Shown in pieces: positions 24,548-32,980 of a DNA stretch of 64,000 nt (position 1 is the first letter of the stretch; every line of letters starts with the position of its first letter). The notes under the pieces were generated by a model that saw nothing but the letters and a program-made list of their open reading frames with translations, searched no databases and was not told where the DNA came from. The position numbers and the translations under genes are program-made. Source of the stretch: Alloalcanivorax dieselolei B5 (GTDB lineage Bacteria > Pseudomonadota > Gammaproteobacteria > Pseudomonadales > Alcanivoracaceae); the NCBI RefSeq assembly GCF_000300005.1, contig NC_018691.1:2914001-2978000 (forward strand). Reading direction: 5' to 3'.

Positions 24548-25420
24548 ATGGACACCCAATCCCTGCAAGCTTTCATGGCCGTGGCTGAGAGCGGTTCCTT
24601 TTCCGGCGCGGCGGAGCGGCTGTTCCTGACCCAGCCGGCGGTGAGCAAGCGCATCGCGGTGCTGGAGCAACAGTTGGGCGCGCGGCTGTTCGACCGGGTC
24701 GGGCGGCGCATCCGCCTCACCGAAGCCGGCGAGGCGCTGTTACCCCGGGCACGGAAAGTGCTTCAGGAACTGGAGGACATGGGCCGCGCCATCAACAACT
24801 TAACCGGCGAGGTCAGCGGTACCCTGCGCATCGGCACCAGTCACCATATCGGTCTGCACCGCCTGCCGCCGGTGCTGCGGCGCTTCTCCCGGGAGTACCC
24901 GCAAGTACGTTTGGACATTCATTTCATTGATTCCGAGGAAGCCTGGGAGTCGGTGCTGCACGGGGATCTGGAGATGGGGGTGGTGACCCTGCCGCCGCAG
25001 CCGGATACCCGCCTGCACAGCCAGGTGATCTGGGACGACCCGCTGGTGTTCATGTGCGCGCCGGAACACCCGCTGGCCCGGCAAGCGGATCTCACCCTGG
25101 AAACCCTGACCCGCTTCAGTGCCATCCTGCCCTCGCCAGTCACTTTCACCCGCCGCATCGTTGAAAGATTATTTCAGGAACACGGCCTGGCGCTGAACAT
25201 CTCCATGTCCACCAACTATCTGGAGACCATCCATATGATGGTGTCCATCGGCCTGGGCTGGAGCGTGCTGCCGGCCACCATGCTGGACCAGAGCGTGATC
25301 GAGCTGGCGGTGGACACGCCGCTGCCGCTACGGCGACTGGGGGTGGTGACGCACCCCGGGCGGAGTCGGTCTAATGCGGCACGGGCCTTCCTGGAGACGG
25401 TGAAGATAGTTGACAGTTGA
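24548..25420 (+). CDS. LysR-family transcriptional regulator
   Basis: A 290-residue regulator with an N-terminal winged HTH (MDTQSLQAFMAVAESGSFSG, then RLFLTQPAVSKRIAVLEQQL) and a C-terminal effector domain. It is divergent from leuC, as PA3122 is from leuC in P. aeruginosa, so it is probably the leu regulator. I use ATG 24548; the open frame upstream is a translation of the palindromic repeat. The last residues IVDS and the TGA stop are encoded by a CAGTTGA-type repeat. No strong Shine-Dalgarno precedes the ATG. Confidence 0.93.
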   Translation: MDTQSLQAFMAVAESGSFSGAAERLFLTQPAVSKRIAVLEQQLGARLFDRVGRRIRLTEAGEALLPRARKVLQELEDMGRAINNLTGEVSGTLRIGTSHHIGLHRLPPVLRRFSREYPQVRLDIHFIDSEEAWESVLHGDLEMGVVTLPPQPDTRLHSQVIWDDPLVFMCAPEHPLARQADLTLETLTRFSAILPSPVTFTRRIVERLFQEHGLALNISMSTNYLETIHMMVSIGLGWSVLPATMLDQSVIELAVDTPLPLRRLGVVTHPGRSRSNAARAFLETVKIVDS

Positions 25421-25445
25421 TAGTGGACAGTTGACAGCGAAAAAA
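25406..25445. repeat. CAGTTGA-type palindrome, left arm (split by IS)
   Basis: Tandem 7-bp-like units TAGTTGA, CAGTTGA, TAGTGGA and CAGTTGA are followed by CAGCGAAAA. The inverted partner arm lies beyond the IS3-family element, at 26826-26860. The first CAGTTGA supplies the LysR stop codon. The intervening original loop (25446-25574) holds an inner hairpin near 25472-25502 (AGGCCGC/GCGGCCT) and no gene. Confidence 0.85.
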
Positions 25446-25603
25446 CAAAACAGGGGCCAGCCCATAATAAGGAGGCCGCACCCTTGGATTGGGAGCGGCC
25501 TTCCGGGAAGAGAAAACAGTAGTCTGCGGATGTGCAAAGTGAGTTTGCGATATCGCAATGTCTTTGACTTTCGCTGGACTGGCCCCATTTAAGTAGACAC
25601 CGA

Positions 25604-26464
25604 TTATAAAGTAGCCGCATAGTCGTTGGGGGTGAGCCCTCCCAACGTCATGTGGCGCCGTACTTTGGGGTAGAAGTGGTCCGTATAGTACTGGATTTCA
25701 TCGGCCATTTCGTCCCGGCCGATCAACCCTAGACGCTTCGTCCACTCCTTCTTCAACAAGGCGAAGAAGCTCTCCGCACAGGCGTTATCCCAGCAGTTGC
25801 CCGGGCGCGACATGCTGATCGTGACATCCCGGTCATTGAGCCAGCCCATCACCGCCTCGTTGCGGTATTGGACGCCCTGATCCGAGTGGAACAGCAGGTC
25901 TTTTCCTCGAGGCTGACGGCACGCCCAGGCCTGCTCCAGAGCACGCAGCACCAGGCCCGAGTCGTTGACCCGCCCCAGCGCTCGACCCACCACCTGACGG
26001 GTGCACAGGTCCAAGATCACCGCCACATACAGCCAACCCTCCTGACACGGCAGTTGGGTAATATCCGACACCCACACCTGGTTGGGGTGAGCTACATTGA
26101 ACTGACGGTTCAGCAGGTTCGGTAGCACTGGCAACCCGCTGCTGGGGCGCCGATGCCCCGGTTTCGTCGCCACGCTAGAACGGTATCCGCAGGCCCGTAG
26201 CAGCCGTTGAACCTGATTCTTGCCGCAGGCAAAGCCTGCCGCCTGCGCATCCAACCACAGCTTGCGGTAACCCGGCACCCCATCCTGTTGTTTCGCCTGC
26301 TCCAGCAGGAACGTCTGCAAGGTCCGCCACCGTTGGCGCCGGGCGCTGGGCCGGCAGGGGGCGTGGCACCACCGGTAATACCCCGCCCGAGATACGTCGA
26401 GTACTTCGCACAACACCGTCACTGGCCAGCGGTCACGGTGCCCGTCAATGAAGGCAAACCTCAT
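25604..26464 (-). CDS. IS3-family transposase OrfB (integrase catalytic domain)
   Basis: A 286-residue product with the rve/DDE catalytic core: first Asp in WVSDITQL, second Asp in FHSDQGVQY and Glu in NACAESFFALLKKEW. The N-terminal HTH_21 region is present (LDVSRAGYYRW). It overlaps the orfA end by four bases and lies in the -1 frame relative to orfA. It is probably made mainly as an OrfAB fusion by frameshifting. Confidence 0.95.
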   Translation of the reverse strand: MRFAFIDGHRDRWPVTVLCEVLDVSRAGYYRWCHAPCRPSARRQRWRTLQTFLLEQAKQQDGVPGYRKLWLDAQAAGFACGKNQVQRLLRACGYRSSVATKPGHRRPSSGLPVLPNLLNRQFNVAHPNQVWVSDITQLPCQEGWLYVAVILDLCTRQVVGRALGRVNDSGLVLRALEQAWACRQPRGKDLLFHSDQGVQYRNEAVMGWLNDRDVTISMSRPGNCWDNACAESFFALLKKEWTKRLGLIGRDEMADEIQYYTDHFYPKVRRHMTLGGLTPNDYAATL

Positions 26465-26778
26465 TTCTGGAGCTTGGCGAAGTACTCGTCCGCCTTTTTT
26501 AGGATGTCCCTCTCCATCTCCGCCCGTTTCAGCTGTTTCTTCAGGCGGGCATTTTCCCGCTCCAGCTCCTCAAGGCTCTTGGTCGGGCCCGCATTACGGA
26601 CCGGTTTCTTGGAGGATGACTTACCCACAATCCACTCCTGCCGCCAGCGGCTCAGTAAGGTCGGATGAACCCCTAGTTTGGCAGCGATCTGTCTTTGTGT
26701 CTGTGGGCTGGACAGCGAGGCCTCAACGGCCTCGCGTTTGAACGCGTCACTAAACCGACGCTTGCTGCGAAATTGCAT
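26461..26778 (-). CDS. IS3-family transposase OrfA (HTH protein)
   Basis: A 105-residue protein with an IS3/HTH_8-type helix-turn-helix (QRQIAAKLGVHPTLLSRWRQ) and a C-terminal leucine-zipper-like coiled coil (LEELERENARLKKQLKRAEM). It binds the IS ends and gives rise to the OrfAB fusion through the slippery A6G near its 3' end. Confidence 0.94.
   Translation of the reverse strand: MQFRSKRRFSDAFKREAVEASLSSPQTQRQIAAKLGVHPTLLSRWRQEWIVGKSSSKKPVRNAGPTKSLEELERENARLKKQLKRAEMERDILKKADEYFAKLQK
26494..26500 (-). promoter_or_regulatory. Programmed -1 frameshift site of the IS
   Basis: The coding strand has A-AAA-AAG in the correct phase in orfA (codons CTA AAA AAG). The -1 frame is open from here into orfB, passing an ATG at 26464. 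This is the classic IS3-family slippery heptamer that produces the OrfAB transposase. Confidence 0.85.
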
Positions 26779-26825
26779 ACACCTTCCTCGTTAATGAAGG
26801 TGTCTACTTTTTTGGGGCCGGTTCA

Positions 26826-26860
26826 CGCTGTCAACTGTCCACTGTCAACTATCAACTGCC
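26826..26860. repeat. CAGTTGA-type palindrome, right arm (split by IS)
   Basis: Inverted partner of 25406-25445. Read on the minus strand it is CAGTTGA, TAGTTGA, CAGTGGA, CAGTTGA, CAGCG. The stop codon of aroC (minus strand, 26854-26852) is the TGA of its first unit. The IS target duplication CGC is at its inner edge. Confidence 0.85.
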
Positions 26861-27955
26861 CTTGTCGCCGGGCACCGGCGACAAGGGCGCCACCACGTCC
26901 GCGTTCTGCGCCCGGTGGCGCAGGTAGTGGTCCATCAGCACCAGCGCCATCATGGCTTCGGCGATGGGGGTGGCGCGCACGCCGACGCAGGGGTCGTGGC
27001 GGCCCTTGGTGACCACTTCGGTGGGCTGGCCGTCCAGGGTCAGGCTGCGGCCCGGGATCAGAATGCTGGAGGTGGGCTTGAGGGCGATGCTGGCGCGCAG
27101 GCGCTGGCCGGAGCTGATGCCGCCGAGGACACCGCCGGCATGGTTGCTGACGAAGCCTTGCGGGGTCATCTCGTCGCGGTGCTGTTCGCCGCGCTGGTTG
27201 ACCACTCCGAAGCCATCGCCCACTTCCACCGCTTTCACCGCGTTGATCGACATCAGAGCCTTGGCCAGATCCGCGTCGAGGCGGTCGAACACCGGCTCAC
27301 CCCAGCCCGGCGGCACACCGTCGGCGAACACCGTGACCCGGGCGCCGATGGAAGAACCGTCCTTGCGCAGGGCGTTGATCAGCGCTTCCAGTTCAGGGAC
27401 TTTGTCGGCGTCCGGAAAGAAGAACGGGTTGTCGTTGACCGTGCTCCAGTCAAACTGTTCGGCACGGATATCGCCGATCTGCTCGACGCCGCCGTAAATC
27501 CGCACCCCGATCCGCTCAGCCAGAAACTTGCGGGCGATGGCGCCGGCGGCCACGCGCATGGCGGTTTCCCGGGCGGAGGAGCGCCCGCCGCCGCGGTAAT
27601 CACGGAAGCCATACTTCTGGGTGTAGGTGTAGTCGGCGTGACCGGGACGGAAGGTGTTGGCGATCTCGCTGTAATCCTTGGATTTCTGATCGGTGTTCTC
27701 GATCAGCAAGCCGATCGGCGTGCCGGTGGTCTTGCCTTCGAACACGCCGGAGAGGATGCGCACCTGATCCGGTTCGCGCCGCTGGGTGGTGTAACGGCTG
27801 GTGCCGGGTTTGCGCCGATCCAGCTCGCCCTGCAGGTCCGCCTCGCTCAACGCCAGCCCCGGCGGGCAGCCGTCGACGATGGCCCCGAGCGCCGGGCCGT
27901 GACTCTCACCGAAGGTGGTCACCCGAAACCGTTCACCAAAACTGTTCCCAGACAT
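26852..27955 (-). CDS. aroC: Chorismate synthase
   Basis: A 367-residue FMN-dependent enzyme that makes chorismate from EPSP. Family motifs are [37 protein letters not shown] and [18 protein letters not shown]. Full length. The final Gly-Ser codons run directly into a repeat-encoded TGA. It lies 27 bp downstream of prmB, a pair conserved in gammaproteobacteria. Confidence 0.98.
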
Positions 27956-27982
27956 TCGTGCTCCTCGATCAGGGGACGCCGG

Positions 27983-28909
27983 TCAGCCGGCGAAATACTC
28001 ACGATGGTCGATCAATTGTTGCCGTGTCAGCAGAAAAACGCCATGGCCGCCGCGCTCGAACTCCAGCCACAGGAACGGCACCTCCGGCCAGGTCGCCATC
28101 ACGTGTTGGTCGCTGTTGCCCACTTCCACGATCAACACACCGTCGTCATTCAGATAATCGGCGGCCCGGGCCAGAATGCGGCGGGTGAAATCCAGGCCAT
28201 CGGCGCCGGAGCCCAGTGCCAGTTCCGGCTCGTGGTGGAATTCCTCGGGCATGCCGGCGAGATCGGCGGCGTCCACGTAAGGCGGGTTGGACACGATCAG
28301 ATCATAACCTCCCCGCAAGCCGTCAAAGCCATCCGCAAGCACCGCCCGCACCCGGTCCCCGAGACCATAGTGGTCGATGTTGGCCTGGCACACCGCCAGT
28401 GCGTCGGCGGAAATATCGCTGGCGTCCACCTCGGCGTCTTCCAGGGCCAAGGCCGTGGCGATGGCGATGCAACCGCCCCCGGTGCACAAATCCAGTGCAC
28501 GCACTGGCTGCTCCGGATCCAACCAGGGCTGGAAACCGGCTTCGATCAGTTCGGCGATGGGCGAACGGGGGATCAGCACCCGCTCGTCCACCTGGAACGG
28601 CAGACCGCAGAACCAGGCCTGGCCGGTCAGATACGGCGTCGGCACCCGCTCGTTGACACGGCGCGCCAGCAGGGCCACGAAGGCTTCCACTTCATGGGGC
28701 AGCAAACGGGCATCGAGCATGCGGGGGTCGCTGTCGTGGGGCAAGGCCAGCACATGCAGCAGCAGCGCCAGCGCCTCGTCACCGTGGTCGTCGGTGCCGT
28801 GGCCCAGAAACACCCCGCCGCGGCGCAGGCAGCTCTCGCCCCAACGCAGACAATCCCGGGGCGTGCGCAGGGTGGCCAGGGCCTGTTGTTGCTGAATCTC
28901 GTCGATCAC
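27983..28909 (-). CDS. prmB: Ribosomal protein uL3 N5-glutamine methyltransferase
   Basis: A 308-residue SAM-dependent methyltransferase that modifies a glutamine of ribosomal protein L3. The SAM motif is ALDLCTGGGCIAIATAL and the catalytic NPPY is in SNPPYVDAADL. It begins with GTG at 28909, with GGAGG seven bases upstream. The pairing with aroC supports PrmB rather than release-factor methylase PrmC. Confidence 0.95.
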   Translation of the reverse strand: MIDEIQQQQALATLRTPRDCLRWGESCLRRGGVFLGHGTDDHGDEALALLLHVLALPHDSDPRMLDARLLPHEVEAFVALLARRVNERVPTPYLTGQAWFCGLPFQVDERVLIPRSPIAELIEAGFQPWLDPEQPVRALDLCTGGGCIAIATALALEDAEVDASDISADALAVCQANIDHYGLGDRVRAVLADGFDGLRGGYDLIVSNPPYVDAADLAGMPEEFHHEPELALGSGADGLDFTRRILARAADYLNDDGVLIVEVGNSDQHVMATWPEVPFLWLEFERGGHGVFLLTRQQLIDHREYFAG

Positions 28910-29074
28910 CTGAGGACCTCCACGAATGGGCGCGCAAGATTAGCATAGAACGGCGCGGGATGGAGGATCGCGGTCCTCTGGCCGCCCACATAGCACTTTC
29001 ACCGGATTGATTTCCCAAGCCCACCTGCGCCACTCTCATAAGGTTGCCCAAAATAAGCAGGATGCGATAACCCC

Positions 29075-29488
29075 ATGCCCTCCCTCACCGTCCGTCAGGA
29101 CGGCCCCTTGACCCTGGTCGAACTGCCCGATGGCATTGATGTGGATCCGGCGGTGCAGTGGCGTATCTACCGTCAGCGACTGGCGCTGTTTCATATGCAT
29201 GGCGAACGGCGTCAGCACGTCATCTACCGCGGCAATATCGGCAGCCTCGACATGCGTGCCGCGCGCTTCGCCTGCGGCAACGATTTCGCGCGGATCACCG
29301 CGCACAAGGTCATCGTGCTGGAAAGCGCGCTCAACCGAACCTTCGCGCACATGATGCTGACACTCAATAAGCCGGCGTTTACCGTCAGCACGGCGTTATC
29401 GCTGGAGCAGGCGAGAACCCGGCTACTCAGTGAACTTCCTCCCGACGCAGGGAATAGCCCCCTTGCCGCCAGTGTCAAAGGCAGGTAG
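29075..29488 (+). CDS. Small protein of unknown function, STAS-like
   Basis: A 137-residue soluble protein with no signal peptide or membrane segment. The central alternation (VIYRGNIGSLDMRAARFACG, then ITAHKVIVLESALNRTFAHM and LNKPAFTVSTALSLEQARTRL) resembles STAS/SpoIIAA-like small proteins, in which a similar GLNKP phrase follows a strand-helix repeat. I regard that as a weak fold guess. Start ATG 29075 has AGGA about 11 bases upstream. It is divergent from prmB and followed by the EVE gene. Confidence 0.7.
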   Translation: MPSLTVRQDGPLTLVELPDGIDVDPAVQWRIYRQRLALFHMHGERRQHVIYRGNIGSLDMRAARFACGNDFARITAHKVIVLESALNRTFAHMMLTLNKPAFTVSTALSLEQARTRLLSELPPDAGNSPLAASVKGR

Positions 29489-29558
29489 TAAAGAAAAAAT
29501 CGCCGCTGCCCATAATAATCACGCCCTCCTTTTTTCGCGGACACTGAATGAGGAAGCC

Positions 29559-30050
29559 ATGCGCATCTGGTTATTCAAAACCGAACCCGACGCCTTCAGC
29601 CTGAACGACTTACAAGCCGCCCCGGACGGCACCTCCGGCTGGGATGGCGTGCGCAACTATCAGGCTCGCAACCGGTTGCGCGATGAAGTGAGCAACGGTG
29701 ACCGCGTTCTGATTTACCATTCCAGTTGCAAGGTACCCGCCATCGTCGGCGAGGCGGAAGTGGTGTCCGACGCCTATCCGGATCCCTCTCAATTCATTAC
29801 CGGCGGCGCCGGCGAGGATCCGCGTAGCCACCCGGACAACCCGCGCTGGTATCAGGTGGATGTGCGCTACCGGCGCCACTTTCCCGAACCGCTCTCCCTG
29901 GCGACCATCCGCGATCACGCGGAGTTTGCCGACATGGAACTGGTGACCCGCCCACGACTGTCGATCCAGCAGATAACGGATCGGCAGTACCGGCAGATTC
30001 TGACCCTGTGCGGAGCCGATGAGCCGCGATCCGCCACCGGCGCGGCCTGA
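29559..30050 (+). CDS. EVE domain-containing protein
   Basis: A 163-residue EVE/thymocyte-protein-like domain covering the whole protein, starting MRIWLFKTEPDAFSLNDL and containing GWDGVRNYQARN and DRVLIYHSSCK. EVE domains are PUA-like folds that read modified nucleotides; the stand-alone bacterial form has no assigned role. ATG 29559 follows GAGGAAG. The open frame upstream is not family-like. Confidence 0.94.
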   Translation: MRIWLFKTEPDAFSLNDLQAAPDGTSGWDGVRNYQARNRLRDEVSNGDRVLIYHSSCKVPAIVGEAEVVSDAYPDPSQFITGGAGEDPRSHPDNPRWYQVDVRYRRHFPEPLSLATIRDHAEFADMELVTRPRLSIQQITDRQYRQILTLCGADEPRSATGAA

Positions 30051-30128
30051 CCGGGCAAGAGGCGGTTTCACTCGCCACCGTTTCCTCCGGTATGCTTAAG
30101 TAAGAAAAACAACGCAGTGGGGCACTTT

Positions 30129-31424
30129 ATGAAACTGCATCACCAGATTTTTCTCGCCATGATTTTGGGCGGGCTGGCGGGCTGGGTGACCAGTGAAGAT
30201 ACCCGGATATTGGGCATCGCCGTTATCGAAGCCTATGACCTGATCGGCACGTTGTTCATCAATGCCTTGAAAATGCTGGTGGTGCCCTTGATCACCACCG
30301 CCATCATCAGTGGTCTGATCAACGTTGGCCAGGGCAAGAACCTGGGCCGACTGGGCGCCAAGACCGTGCTGTTCTATATGAGCACCAGCCTGATCGCCAT
30401 TCTGATCGGTTTGTTGCTGGTGAATCTCATCACCCCGGGCATCATCGACGGCGAACCGGCCCGGGACCTGCTGGGCTTCGCCGCCAACACCCAGGACGTG
30501 CTACAGAAAATCGAAGGCCGGGGCGCCGGCGAGTTCACTCAGATTCTGCTGCAAATGTTACCGCCCAATCTGGTGCAGGCCGCCGCCGATGGCCAGATGC
30601 TGGGGCTGATCGTGTTCTCGCTGCTGTTCGGCTTTTTCCTGCGGACGCTGGCCGGCGCGCCGGGCGACACCCTGCGCAACATGGTCGAGGGGTTCTACGA
30701 GGTGATGGTCAGCATCACCATGCTAATCATCCGTTTCGCCCCGTTGGGCGTGTTCGGCCTGATCGCCGCCACCGTCACCCGCACCGGGCTGGACGCCCTG
30801 GAACCGCTGCTGTGGTTCTTCTTCACGGTACTCGCCGCCCTGTTCCTGCATGCCTTCGTGGTGATGCCACTGCTGATCCGGGTGTTGGCGCAACGCTCCC
30901 CCTGGCGCCATTTCCAGGCCATGTCACCGGCACTGATGACCGCGTTCTCCTCGGCCAGCTCCGCCGCCACCTTGCCGTTGACCATGGATTGCGTGCAAAA
31001 GCGGTCCGGTGTTTCCAAGCGCACCGCCAGTTTCGTGCTGCCGCTGGGCGCCACCGTGAACATGGACGGCACCGCGCTGTACGAATGCGCCGCCGCCATT
31101 TTTATCGCCCAGGCCTATGGTCTGGATTTGTCCTTCGGCATGCAGTTCGCCATTGTGTTCACCGCCCTGATCACTTCCATCGGCGTCGCCAGCATCCCCG
31201 CCGCCAGCCTGGTGGCGATCACCGTGATCCTCGGCATCATCGGCCTGCCGGCGGAAGCGATTGGTTTGATTCTGGTCACCGACCGTATTCTCGACATGTG
31301 CCGTACCGCGGTGAATGTGTGGGGCGACAGCGTCGGCGCCGTCCTGCTGGCCCGCAGTGAAGGCGAGGAAAACGTGCTACAAACCCCGATGCGCCAACTG
31401 GATGGCCAACGCCATGCGGTGTAG
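30129..31424 (+). CDS. Dicarboxylate/amino acid:cation symporter (DAACS family)
   Basis: A 431-residue GltP/DctA-like transporter with about eight membrane segments and two re-entrant loops. Hallmarks are SSAATLPLTMDCV (hairpin 1) and NMDGTALYECAAAIFIAQ (cation/substrate site). It takes up glutamate, aspartate or C4-dicarboxylates with Na+ or H+; the specificity cannot be read here. I use ATG 30129; a GTG at 30117 is in frame and contributes the GTGGGG that looks like the ribosome site. Confidence 0.94.
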   Translation: MKLHHQIFLAMILGGLAGWVTSEDTRILGIAVIEAYDLIGTLFINALKMLVVPLITTAIISGLINVGQGKNLGRLGAKTVLFYMSTSLIAILIGLLLVNLITPGIIDGEPARDLLGFAANTQDVLQKIEGRGAGEFTQILLQMLPPNLVQAAADGQMLGLIVFSLLFGFFLRTLAGAPGDTLRNMVEGFYEVMVSITMLIIRFAPLGVFGLIAATVTRTGLDALEPLLWFFFTVLAALFLHAFVVMPLLIRVLAQRSPWRHFQAMSPALMTAFSSASSAATLPLTMDCVQKRSGVSKRTASFVLPLGATVNMDGTALYECAAAIFIAQAYGLDLSFGMQFAIVFTALITSIGVASIPAASLVAITVILGIIGLPAEAIGLILVTDRILDMCRTAVNVWGDSVGAVLLARSEGEENVLQTPMRQLDGQRHAV

Positions 31425-31451
31425 ACCCGGCCCGCGGCGCGAGCACCGGCC

Positions 31452-32240
31452 ATGAGTCAGAGTAGCCCCGTGATGCTGATCACCGGTGCCGCCCACGGTC
31501 TGGGCGCCGCCCTGGCCCGGGCGGCCGTTGATGATTACCGGCTGGCGCTGCTGGATCGTGATGAACTGGCCGGGCAAACCCTGGCCAACACCTTGCGCGG
31601 CCGTACCGGCGAGGTGTTGTTTCTGCATGCCGACGTCAGTGACGAACGCGCGGTGCGCCAGGCGATGGAACGGATACAGCGGCGCTGGGAGCGGCTGGAC
31701 GTGGTGATCAACAACGCCGGCGTCGCCGACACCGGTCCGTTCGAGGCGCTCGGTAACCACGGCTGGGAAACGCTGTGGCGGACCAATGTAATGGGAACGG
31801 TGTACGTGTGCCGGGCGGCGCTGGCGCAGATGAAACGGCAGAACAGCGGCCATTTGATCAACATCGCGGCGCTGGCGGGTATCACCGGGCCGCCTGGATT
31901 GAGCAGCTACGCCGCCTGCAGCGGCGCCCTGGTGCGCCTCAGCGAGGCGCTGGCGGCGGAGCTGGCTGGCACCGACATCGCCGTCAGCGTGGCCTGCCCC
32001 GACCTGTTCGCCAGCACGCTGCATCAGCGCCTCACCGGCGCCGACCCGCTCAGCCGGGCACGCTTGGAACGGGCCATGCGCCGCGCCGCCGACGACGTTG
32101 ATACGGTGGCACAAGACATTCTCACCGCCGCCGCCAAACGACCGCTGTATATCTTCCCGCAAGCAGAAGCCCGCCGCGCCTGGCGCCGCAAACGACGCAA
32201 CCCCATGCGTTTTTTCCACAAGTGGAAAAAACGCAGTTAA
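31452..32240 (+). CDS. Short-chain dehydrogenase-like protein with degraded catalytic residues
   Basis: A 262-residue classical SDR fold with the nucleotide motif TGAAHGLGAAL (11-21) and NNAG (87-90). The catalytic Tyr is kept (Y153 in SSYAACSG), but the usual Lys four residues later is Ser157. The catalytic Ser position in LINIAALAG is Ala. By SDR rules it should be a poor or inactive oxidoreductase. The C-terminus is very basic (RRAWRRKRRN). It is convergent with the DUF2505 gene, with a CAGTTGA palindrome between them. Confidence 0.88.
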   Translation: MSQSSPVMLITGAAHGLGAALARAAVDDYRLALLDRDELAGQTLANTLRGRTGEVLFLHADVSDERAVRQAMERIQRRWERLDVVINNAGVADTGPFEALGNHGWETLWRTNVMGTVYVCRAALAQMKRQNSGHLINIAALAGITGPPGLSSYAACSGALVRLSEALAAELAGTDIAVSVACPDLFASTLHQRLTGADPLSRARLERAMRRAADDVDTVAQDILTAAAKRPLYIFPQAEARRAWRRKRRNPMRFFHKWKKRS

Positions 32241-32248
32241 CTTTATAA

Positions 32249-32357
32249 GCAGTTGACAGTGGACAGCGAAAACAAGCTTCCCACAGCGGCTAAAGATCGG
32301 GCTTTTTTGTCTTTTTCGCTGTCAACTGTCCACTATCAACTGTCAACTGTCTTTTCT
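32249..32357. repeat. CAGTTGA-type palindrome between convergent genes
   Basis: Left arm 32249-32272 (CAGTTGACAGTGGACAGCG then AAAA) and right arm 32314-32351 are inverted; the right arm has one more unit. The loop includes GGGCTTTTTTGTCTTTTTCG, so either strand meets a stem followed by a T-rich run. The right arm provides the last four residues and the TGA of the leftward DUF2505 gene. Confidence 0.85.
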
Positions 32358-32857
32358 TTTATGTACCGCAGCGTGGCTCGATAGTCCCCTTCCAAGGCCT
32401 GGTCAAAACGCTGGCCGATCAGTTTTTCCAGTTTGCCGCCCACCAGGGGCACCGAGGAGCGCACCGCCACCTGGGTGATCTGGCGGGATTCGCCGCCGCC
32501 ATCGCTGCCGGGTAACAGGGTCATGGTGCCGCTGACTTTCACCGGCACATTGCCGAGGGCGAAGCGGTATTCCGCACGGTAGCCGCCTTCCGGCGCCGGG
32601 TGCCAGCGGAATTCCGTGGTCAGGTCGGCCCGGGTGGGCAGAAAGCGGCGGGCGAAACCGGGAATTTTATCGGCGCGGATGGCAATCGGCTGGACGATGC
32701 GAATCAGCGCGCCGTCCCCGGTCTGCTCAAAGGCATCGAAGCGATAATCCTCCACCCTTCCCCAGGCATAACGCTGCTCGAAAAATGCCTTGCTGGTGAG
32801 AATCGCGTACAACGTTTCCACATCCACCGGATAGCGGCGCTCCACCGTCATTTCCAT
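32336..32857 (-). CDS. DUF2505 domain protein
   Basis: A 173-residue protein of the SRPBCC/START-like fold class, typical of DUF2505, with ERRYPVDVETLYAILTSKAF at the N-terminus. It probably binds a hydrophobic ligand, but no substrate is known. I use ATG 32857 (MEMTVERRYP), preceded by GGGAGA. The C-terminal Thr-Val-Asp-Ser and stop are encoded by the palindromic repeat. Convergent with the SDR-like gene. Confidence 0.88.
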   Translation of the reverse strand: MEMTVERRYPVDVETLYAILTSKAFFEQRYAWGRVEDYRFDAFEQTGDGALIRIVQPIAIRADKIPGFARRFLPTRADLTTEFRWHPAPEGGYRAEYRFALGNVPVKVSGTMTLLPGSDGGGESRQITQVAVRSSVPLVGGKLEKLIGQRFDQALEGDYRATLRYIKEKTVDS

Positions 32858-32980
32858 GTTGTCTCCCGAACGTTTTTTCGTATTGGCCAAAAAGCCGGTG
32901 TGCAAAGAACTCTATGATGGGCCAGAAACGGCGGGGAAGGTACACTGGAATACCAGTTCTGAACAGGATCGGGGGGCAGC

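Follow-up and report, generated by a model that had tools for sequence, protein, structure and literature searches.

What are the palindromes of CAGTTGA-type seven-base units that lie between convergent genes of Alloalcanivorax dieselolei B5, and why do the neighbouring genes stop within them? The DNA analysed here is a stretch of 64 000 nucleotides (the window; positions 2 914 001–2 978 000 of contig NC_018691.1, which is 4.93 Mb long), and it contains two such palindromes. We consider that they are probably non-autonomous members of a repeat family resembling that of the REP-associated tyrosine transposases (RAYTs) and the repetitive extragenic palindromic (REP) sequences, and that the gene-carrying member of this family is a PF05635 (S23) IVP gene between inverted heptad arrays. 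The comparison is drawn because one gene is found between inverted ends, gene-less copies occur elsewhere and the ends vary with the gene.

The gene-carrying copy and its heptad arrays

In the genome, the degenerate arm end GTKGAYAGCGAAAA, with at most one mismatch, has 85 matches compared with one for the reversed control, and GTTGACAGTGGACAG has 12 compared with none, so that the pattern does not arise by chance. The arm set was derived from 117 matches by removal of 17 with scores of 20–21 and of one inner duplicate (1633910). The 99 arms kept include one weak match within a gene (4719514), and heptad-only sites without the core were taken from the first 100 places, such that some beyond 3.17 Mb may be missing. 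Each arm consists of three to five heptads, and the arms are inverted around a variable centre, which can be a REP-like hairpin, a GGCCGC hairpin, an IVP gene or an insertion sequence (IS). There are 38 paired elements of 72–450 bp: 19 with a REP-like (type A) centre, 11 with a GGCCGC hairpin (type B), one with both and seven with neither.

The copy at 869083–869532, between glyA and nrdR, encloses an open reading frame (ORF) of 118 residues that matches TIGR02436 (9.6e-29) and PF05635 (9.9e-26) and exceeds the curated cut-offs of PF05635/TIGR02436 (99.8 bits against 24; 90.5 against 33.8). The model of this IVP is a four-helix bundle (pLDDT 96.3) with the fold of 2rld/2gsc; the best PDB match is 2rld (TM 0.93), which is also matched in sequence (1.7e-44). 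The paired elements have the terminal inverted repeats of a miniature inverted-repeat transposable element, but no parent transposon was found that shares these ends and encodes a transposase: the parent-like copy carries the IVP gene and no transposase.

This layout is that described, in the accessible part of the source (PMC2817692), for RAYT with REP or bacterial interspersed mosaic elements (BIMEs), in which a single-copy gene is flanked by inverted repeats and many gene-less copies are dispersed; the same part proposes that BIMEs are non-autonomous elements moved by RAYT. Here, 99 arms and 38 paired elements accompany an IVP gene at the glyA locus that has the heptad repeat on either side. 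Unlike RAYT, the protein is an S23/IVP four-helix bundle and not a tyrosine transposase and, unlike REP, the ends are heptad arrays rather than a short hairpin, with copies on gene ends. An IS200/IS605-like RAYT gene was not found between the repeats, where PF05635 is present instead; the remainder of the genome was not searched for one. Alternatively, a RAYT might move the REP-like centre, with the heptads as passengers, as the type A centre of half of the paired elements (19 of 38) might suggest, together with the heptad-free REP arrays that occupy gaps in the relative G008 and the one that stands alone in the window. We regard this as unlikely given that 18 of the 38 elements have only a type B or another centre, that the IVP locus is tracked by heptads and not by REP, and that heptads flank IVP genes in other phyla.

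PF05635 is present in 29 of 46 genomes of the host's family, and the glyA–IVP–nrdR locus was verified in 24 of them, with heptads in both flanks. These heptads fall into four types, CAGTTGA, CAGTTAA, TAATTGA and TAATTAA (T1–T4). Matches to T1–T4 sum to at least 24 in each of the 24 locus-bearing genomes and to 0–5 in the other 22, five of which carry other IVP paralogues only. In several of the heptad searches some reversed-pattern controls are high, as a heptad read backwards can look like a different phase of a heptad. Rank tests of the own heptad type, uncorrected for phylogeny, gave p values of 0.001 for T1, 0.002 for T3 and 0.01 for T4.

The association extends beyond this family. When 84 980 genomes were scanned with an IVP alignment, 430 loci resulted, the best 80 of which, representing the IVPs nearest to the query, were kept. 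Sixty-four are not labelled Alcanivorax or kin, and one of these, L233, is seemingly the same glyA locus; the flanks of 63 diverse loci were compared. With an array defined by lag 7 as the best lag and at least 15/21 matches, and required on both sides, 54 of the 63 loci are bracketed, compared with 35 of 701 control windows; at a stricter threshold of 17/21 the counts are 32 of 63 and 8 of 809, and lags of 5, 6, 8 and 9 are not found in the flanks. Arrays bracket 16 of 25 other IVP paralogues in the family (control 13/294) and all 14 plasmid loci (control 3/78), which were picked for spread out of 25 records. The plasmid hosts are cyanobacteria, Bacteroidota, Treponema, Chloroflexota and a Clostridium-like host, and their heptads are very different (for example AAGTCGC, AATTCGT, AATCCCC). 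The short tandemly repeated repetitive heptads of cyanobacteria may be linked to such IVP-type arrays.

Replication slippage followed by recombination could in principle account for making and spreading the arrays, with the IVP genes present but without a role. Array lengths do differ in steps of seven, the arms are able to recombine as inverted repeats and heptad repeats are reported from many genomes without a named protein in the portion of PMC4679880 available to us. We nevertheless judge this explanation improbable, as slippage yields direct arrays and not facing inverted pairs at one gene family (54 of 63 loci compared with about 5% of control windows), and it leaves the pattern at residue 54 described below unexplained.

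Of 59 upstream arrays, 44 have a same-direction ORF of at least 80 codons that terminates within them or shortly ahead of them (204 of 1912 control windows), and 20 of 63 downstream arrays have such an ORF in convergent orientation; these counts cannot separate intact from cut genes because the arrays are stop-rich. IVP elements are often located 3′ of an apparent type I restriction hsdS (L238, L243, L268, L284, L298 and L416); the gene is annotated in L416, and in the other five it is presumed to be hsdS-like from a motif. At L418 and L422 IVP genes adjoin cas1 or cas2 on cyanobacterial plasmids, and IVP within cas loci is noted in the text seen of PMC3936711.

The protein family is that of the S23/IVP ORF of 23S rRNA intervening sequences, as far as the excerpt of PMC4990558 goes, where the Coxiella element, which has GACAGAT heptamers in tandem 5′ of its ORF, is called a selfish element. 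Unlike these intervening sequences, the present elements lie between protein genes and have dispersed gene-less copies; a 23S rRNA intervening sequence was rejected as an identity for the locus, which is intergenic between glyA and nrdR in 24 of 24 genomes and not within an rRNA gene. Apart from the Coxiella remark in that excerpt, a link between IVP and flanking heptads was not found in the excerpts read of open-access papers, and a text search of the open-access literature for GTTGACAGTTGACAG returned no paper. The fold is also that of Avd from diversity-generating retroelements (PMC10053308, in the part available; PDB 4dwl and 8ub7), with a weak structural match (E 0.12–0.5, TM ∼0.7); in contrast to Avd loci, the glyA–IVP–nrdR locus showed neither a reverse transcriptase nor a variable repeat.

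Gene ends, stop codons and palindrome centres

Seventy-nine of the 99 arms face a gene 3′ end (p = 1.8e-9 against one half, with arms treated as independent) and 20 face a 5′ end, gene calls being those of our own uncurated codon-usage script. A majority of copies remote from gene ends would have counted against a first-pass annotation of the window, and the genome displays the opposite. In 74 of the 79 3′-facing arms the stop is inside the arm or 1–19 nt before it: 31 stops are in the arm and 43 ahead of it, while five are more distant. Those inside comprise 26 that are the TGA of the heptad itself, which is only ever used in frames two and three (offsets 7 and 14), and five across the outer edge. 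The proposal that the TGA of a unit is the actual stop is therefore correct for part of the arms, with more stops placed just before the arm than in it. In the common T1 arm, TGA closes two frames and the third is left open; stops in all three frames, considered as a general property, hold for sample arms of T2, T3 and T4 and were rejected for T1. Given how many stops the heptad itself spells, a stop inside the arm is what one would expect wherever an element lands at the end of a gene, and no targeting signal has to be assumed.

Palindrome 1 of the window has a left arm at 25406–25441 (+ strand; heptads TAGTTGA CAGTTGA TAGTGGA CAGTTGA, then CAGCGAAAA), a centre at 25442–25574 (type B GGCCGC hairpin and GCGATATCGC) and a right arm at 26826–26858 (− strand). 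It is interrupted by an IS3-type insertion sequence of 1251 bp (25575–26825, − strand; ORFs 26461–26778 and 25604–26464) with a CGC target duplication. The LysR-type regulator gene (24548–25420, + strand) ends in ATA GTT GAC AGT TGA (IVDS-stop), with the last four codons derived from the arm and the stop (25418–25420) within a heptad unit. On the other side, aroC (26852–27955, − strand) ends in GAC AAG GGC AGT TGA (DKGS-stop), and its TGA (26852–26854) is likewise within a unit of the arm. Palindrome 2 consists of a left arm at 32250–32272 (+ strand; CAGTTGA CAGTGGA CAGCGAAAA), a centre at 32273–32312 (half of a type A hairpin) and a right arm at 32313–32349 (− strand), in which a unit supplies the TGA (32336–32338) of the DUF2505 gene (32336–32905, − strand; ACA GTT GAC AGT TGA, KTVDS-stop). 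On re-reading the sequence we thus agree with the first-pass annotation on these three stops, and the VDS terminus common to LysR (IVDS) and DUF2505 (TVDS) does stem from the same GTT GAC AGT TGA in both.

The SDR gene (31452–32240, + strand) ends in CGC AGT TAA (TAA at 32238–32240), which had been suspected to be a decayed unit. The CAGTTAA at 32234–32240 (+ strand) is indeed a heptad remnant that supplies the stop, but one of an older array of the T2 type, as judged from two relatives that keep an array there: in G006 the SDR CAGTTAA continues directly into CAGTGAATAGGGAACAGTGAATAG, and G008 has CGGTTAA and the same CAGTGAATAGGGAACAGTGAATAG array. Within the coding end, the final SDR codons form a perfect 13-pair hairpin (TGCGTTTTTTCCAC AAGTGGAAAAAACGCA; 32206–32235). 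The end of the insertion sequence has four matches in its own genome (504468, 1501955, 2940799 and 4033602), all within or directly beside heptad arms and three between paired arms; heptad elements seem to be a target of this IS3-type element. The window has no Rfam match at the gathering score.

Merging gives 58 sites (1501777 was joined with 1503216 by hand and two gene-spanned matches were excluded), of which 29 are convergent, 27 codirectional and two divergent; the corresponding background gaps number 17, 80 and 17. The convergent placement seen at both window palindromes consequently holds for half of the sites and not for the remainder, and placement between convergent genes only was rejected. 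Terminator-like hairpins occur in seven of 11 type B centres, three of 19 type A centres and, as background, in six of 39; a GC stem with a T run on both strands, as in an intrinsic bidirectional terminator, occurs in just one of the 38 elements. In the window palindrome centres the sole listed terminator-like hairpin is at 25545–25558, on one strand. Termination was rejected as the main role in view of the background level of type A centres.

Host-made bidirectional terminators, selected between genes and not mobile in origin, would fit the convergence of half of the sites (15% of background gaps) and the hairpins of type B centres. We find this very unlikely: type A centres do not exceed background, 27 of the 58 sites are codirectional, and in relatives lacking the IVP (G002, G003 and G012) the intervals between the corresponding genes are short and unrelated. 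The idea of the palindrome as a portable gene end is largely right as regards stops and C-termini, but the terminator that it was also thought to provide is at most putative, with terminator-like hairpins in a minority of centres.

DNA uptake sequences in Neisseria and Haemophilus also occur as inverted pairs at gene ends, and the 3′ location of the present inverted pairs is what such sequences would display. That they are uptake sequences is highly improbable, in that sister genomes do not share one heptad, nor do paralogues of one genome, the arms are arrays and not one fixed word, and the family includes a protein gene.

Similar in form are TAACTGA and other heptanucleotide repeats of Beggiatoaceae, cyanobacteria and Bacteroidetes, 13 sets of which overlap an upstream stop according to the sections available of PMC4679880. 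Like the arms described here, these are seven-base, stop-rich units overlapping gene ends; they differ in being direct, located mostly ahead of start codons and assigned other candidate binders, and those sections contain no mention of IVP that we could find.

The same sites in related genomes

Orthologous gaps were compared at 30 sites picked for the presence of T1 in G000, the genome of the window. T1 or T2 heptads are present in 29 of 30 gaps in G008 and 25 of 27 in G006, and are absent from those of the IVP-lacking G002 (0/10), G003 (0/7) and G012 (0/8), that is 0 of 25. At sites in common the arms have been swapped, and the prevailing type goes with the resident IVP: in G006, whose IVP is of the T2 type, T2 predominates at 17 of the 25 occupied sites, and in G008, whose IVP is of the T1 type, T1 does so at 21 of 29 (p = 0.006). 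Three centres are cleanly inverted between G000 and G008 (98.6% identity over 140 bp; 95.0% over 120 bp; 98.5% over 68 bp and 97.1% over 34 bp).

Orthologous C-termini change with the heptad type. LysR ends in IVDS here and in INSE in G006 and G008; aroC ends in DKGS here and, from their own arm, in DKGSE (TAG) in G006 and G008; DUF2505 ends in KTVDS here, KQ in G006 and G008, HHQA in G002 and HHDAG in G012. It had been asked whether orthologues without this repeat would keep the same end, and their C-termini do differ.

In the SDR–DUF2505 gap of G002 (L335) and in G003 (L366), both without this IVP, other heptads (GGATACA; CTGCAAG) are arrayed at gene ends in inverted or direct order, and these arrays resemble the flanks of other IVP paralogues (L150, L143). 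A T1 element at 4741581 in G000 is nearly identical in G006 (C1:125750–126710), where other elements are mostly T2, and the adjoining gene is 100% identical over the end compared; a recent transfer is possible.

Pairing of protein and heptad

Across the 24 glyA loci, eight IVP columns (including 54, 66, 76 and 79) sort all loci correctly by the base at heptad position 6 (G or A), and two sort them by position 3. Among 61 other loci with at least four recognised units, residue 54 is aromatic with A at position 6 in four of four and Gln, His or Asn with G in 53 of 57 (p = 1.3e-4; p = 0.001 without L233); the four exceptions have a GGTGAAT-like heptad of uncertain phase. In the model, considered by topology only, residue 54 lies just past helix 2 (33–53), at the bundle end where helix 1 begins and helix 4 ends.

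In our reading, the IVP recognises heptads of its own type, whether in DNA or in the transcript, through the bundle end bearing residue 54, and this recognition would drive copying or exchange of arms. Copies would persist mainly at gene ends because a stop-rich heptad costs few residues there and a whole gene elsewhere. No recognised transposase motif is present in the IVP; a host or reverse transcriptase partner for catalysis is our first guess, made because Avd, which is related in fold, has a reverse transcriptase as its partner.

Several observations weigh against the proposed family of IVP-driven elements. The mobility assumed in the first-pass annotation is an inference: no transposition event was seen, G000, G006 and G008 have nearly all compared sites in common, and a search for empty sites in G008 and G006 caught no clean insertion from which a target duplication could be read, among gaps that nearly all bear heptads (29/30 and 25/27). 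The inversion of arms could be the work of RecA. Three gaps in G002, G003 and G012, which lack this IVP, hold other lag-7 arrays, and arrays on both sides fall below threshold in nine of the 63 diverse loci and nine of the 25 paralogues. Only 15 of the 24 genomes have their own heptad type as the most frequent one, and nine do not (G010, G019, G027, G031, G033, G036, G039, G040 and G041), so that an own-type rule was rejected as a strict law, and the rank test for T2 is not significant (p = 0.14). As for residue 54, the aromatic set of four includes L233, which is seemingly the glyA locus again; residues 76 and 79 give no separation outside the family, and in T4 loci the calls at position 3 are mixed. 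Covariation of IVP and flank may be plain linkage, and linkage and shared descent inflate it.

To our knowledge, no function has been assigned to the IVP (S23) proteins in the decades since they entered the databases, and we know of no accepted source for bacterial heptanucleotide repeats. We tentatively suggest that IVP/S23 could confer specificity on a mobile-repeat system that extends across the bacteria, with each protein reading its own heptad (aromatic residue 54 for A, and Gln, His or Asn for G, at position 6). The known heptad arrays of cyanobacteria, Bacteroidetes and others could then be its footprints, and gene-less copies could be portable gene ends that rewrite stops and C-termini. 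A fixed link between IVP and heptad would make both testable, as one protein and one seven-base word. If the suggestion is true, a repeat family edits many protein ends at once, and C-termini would track the heptad type of the genome and not selection on the protein.

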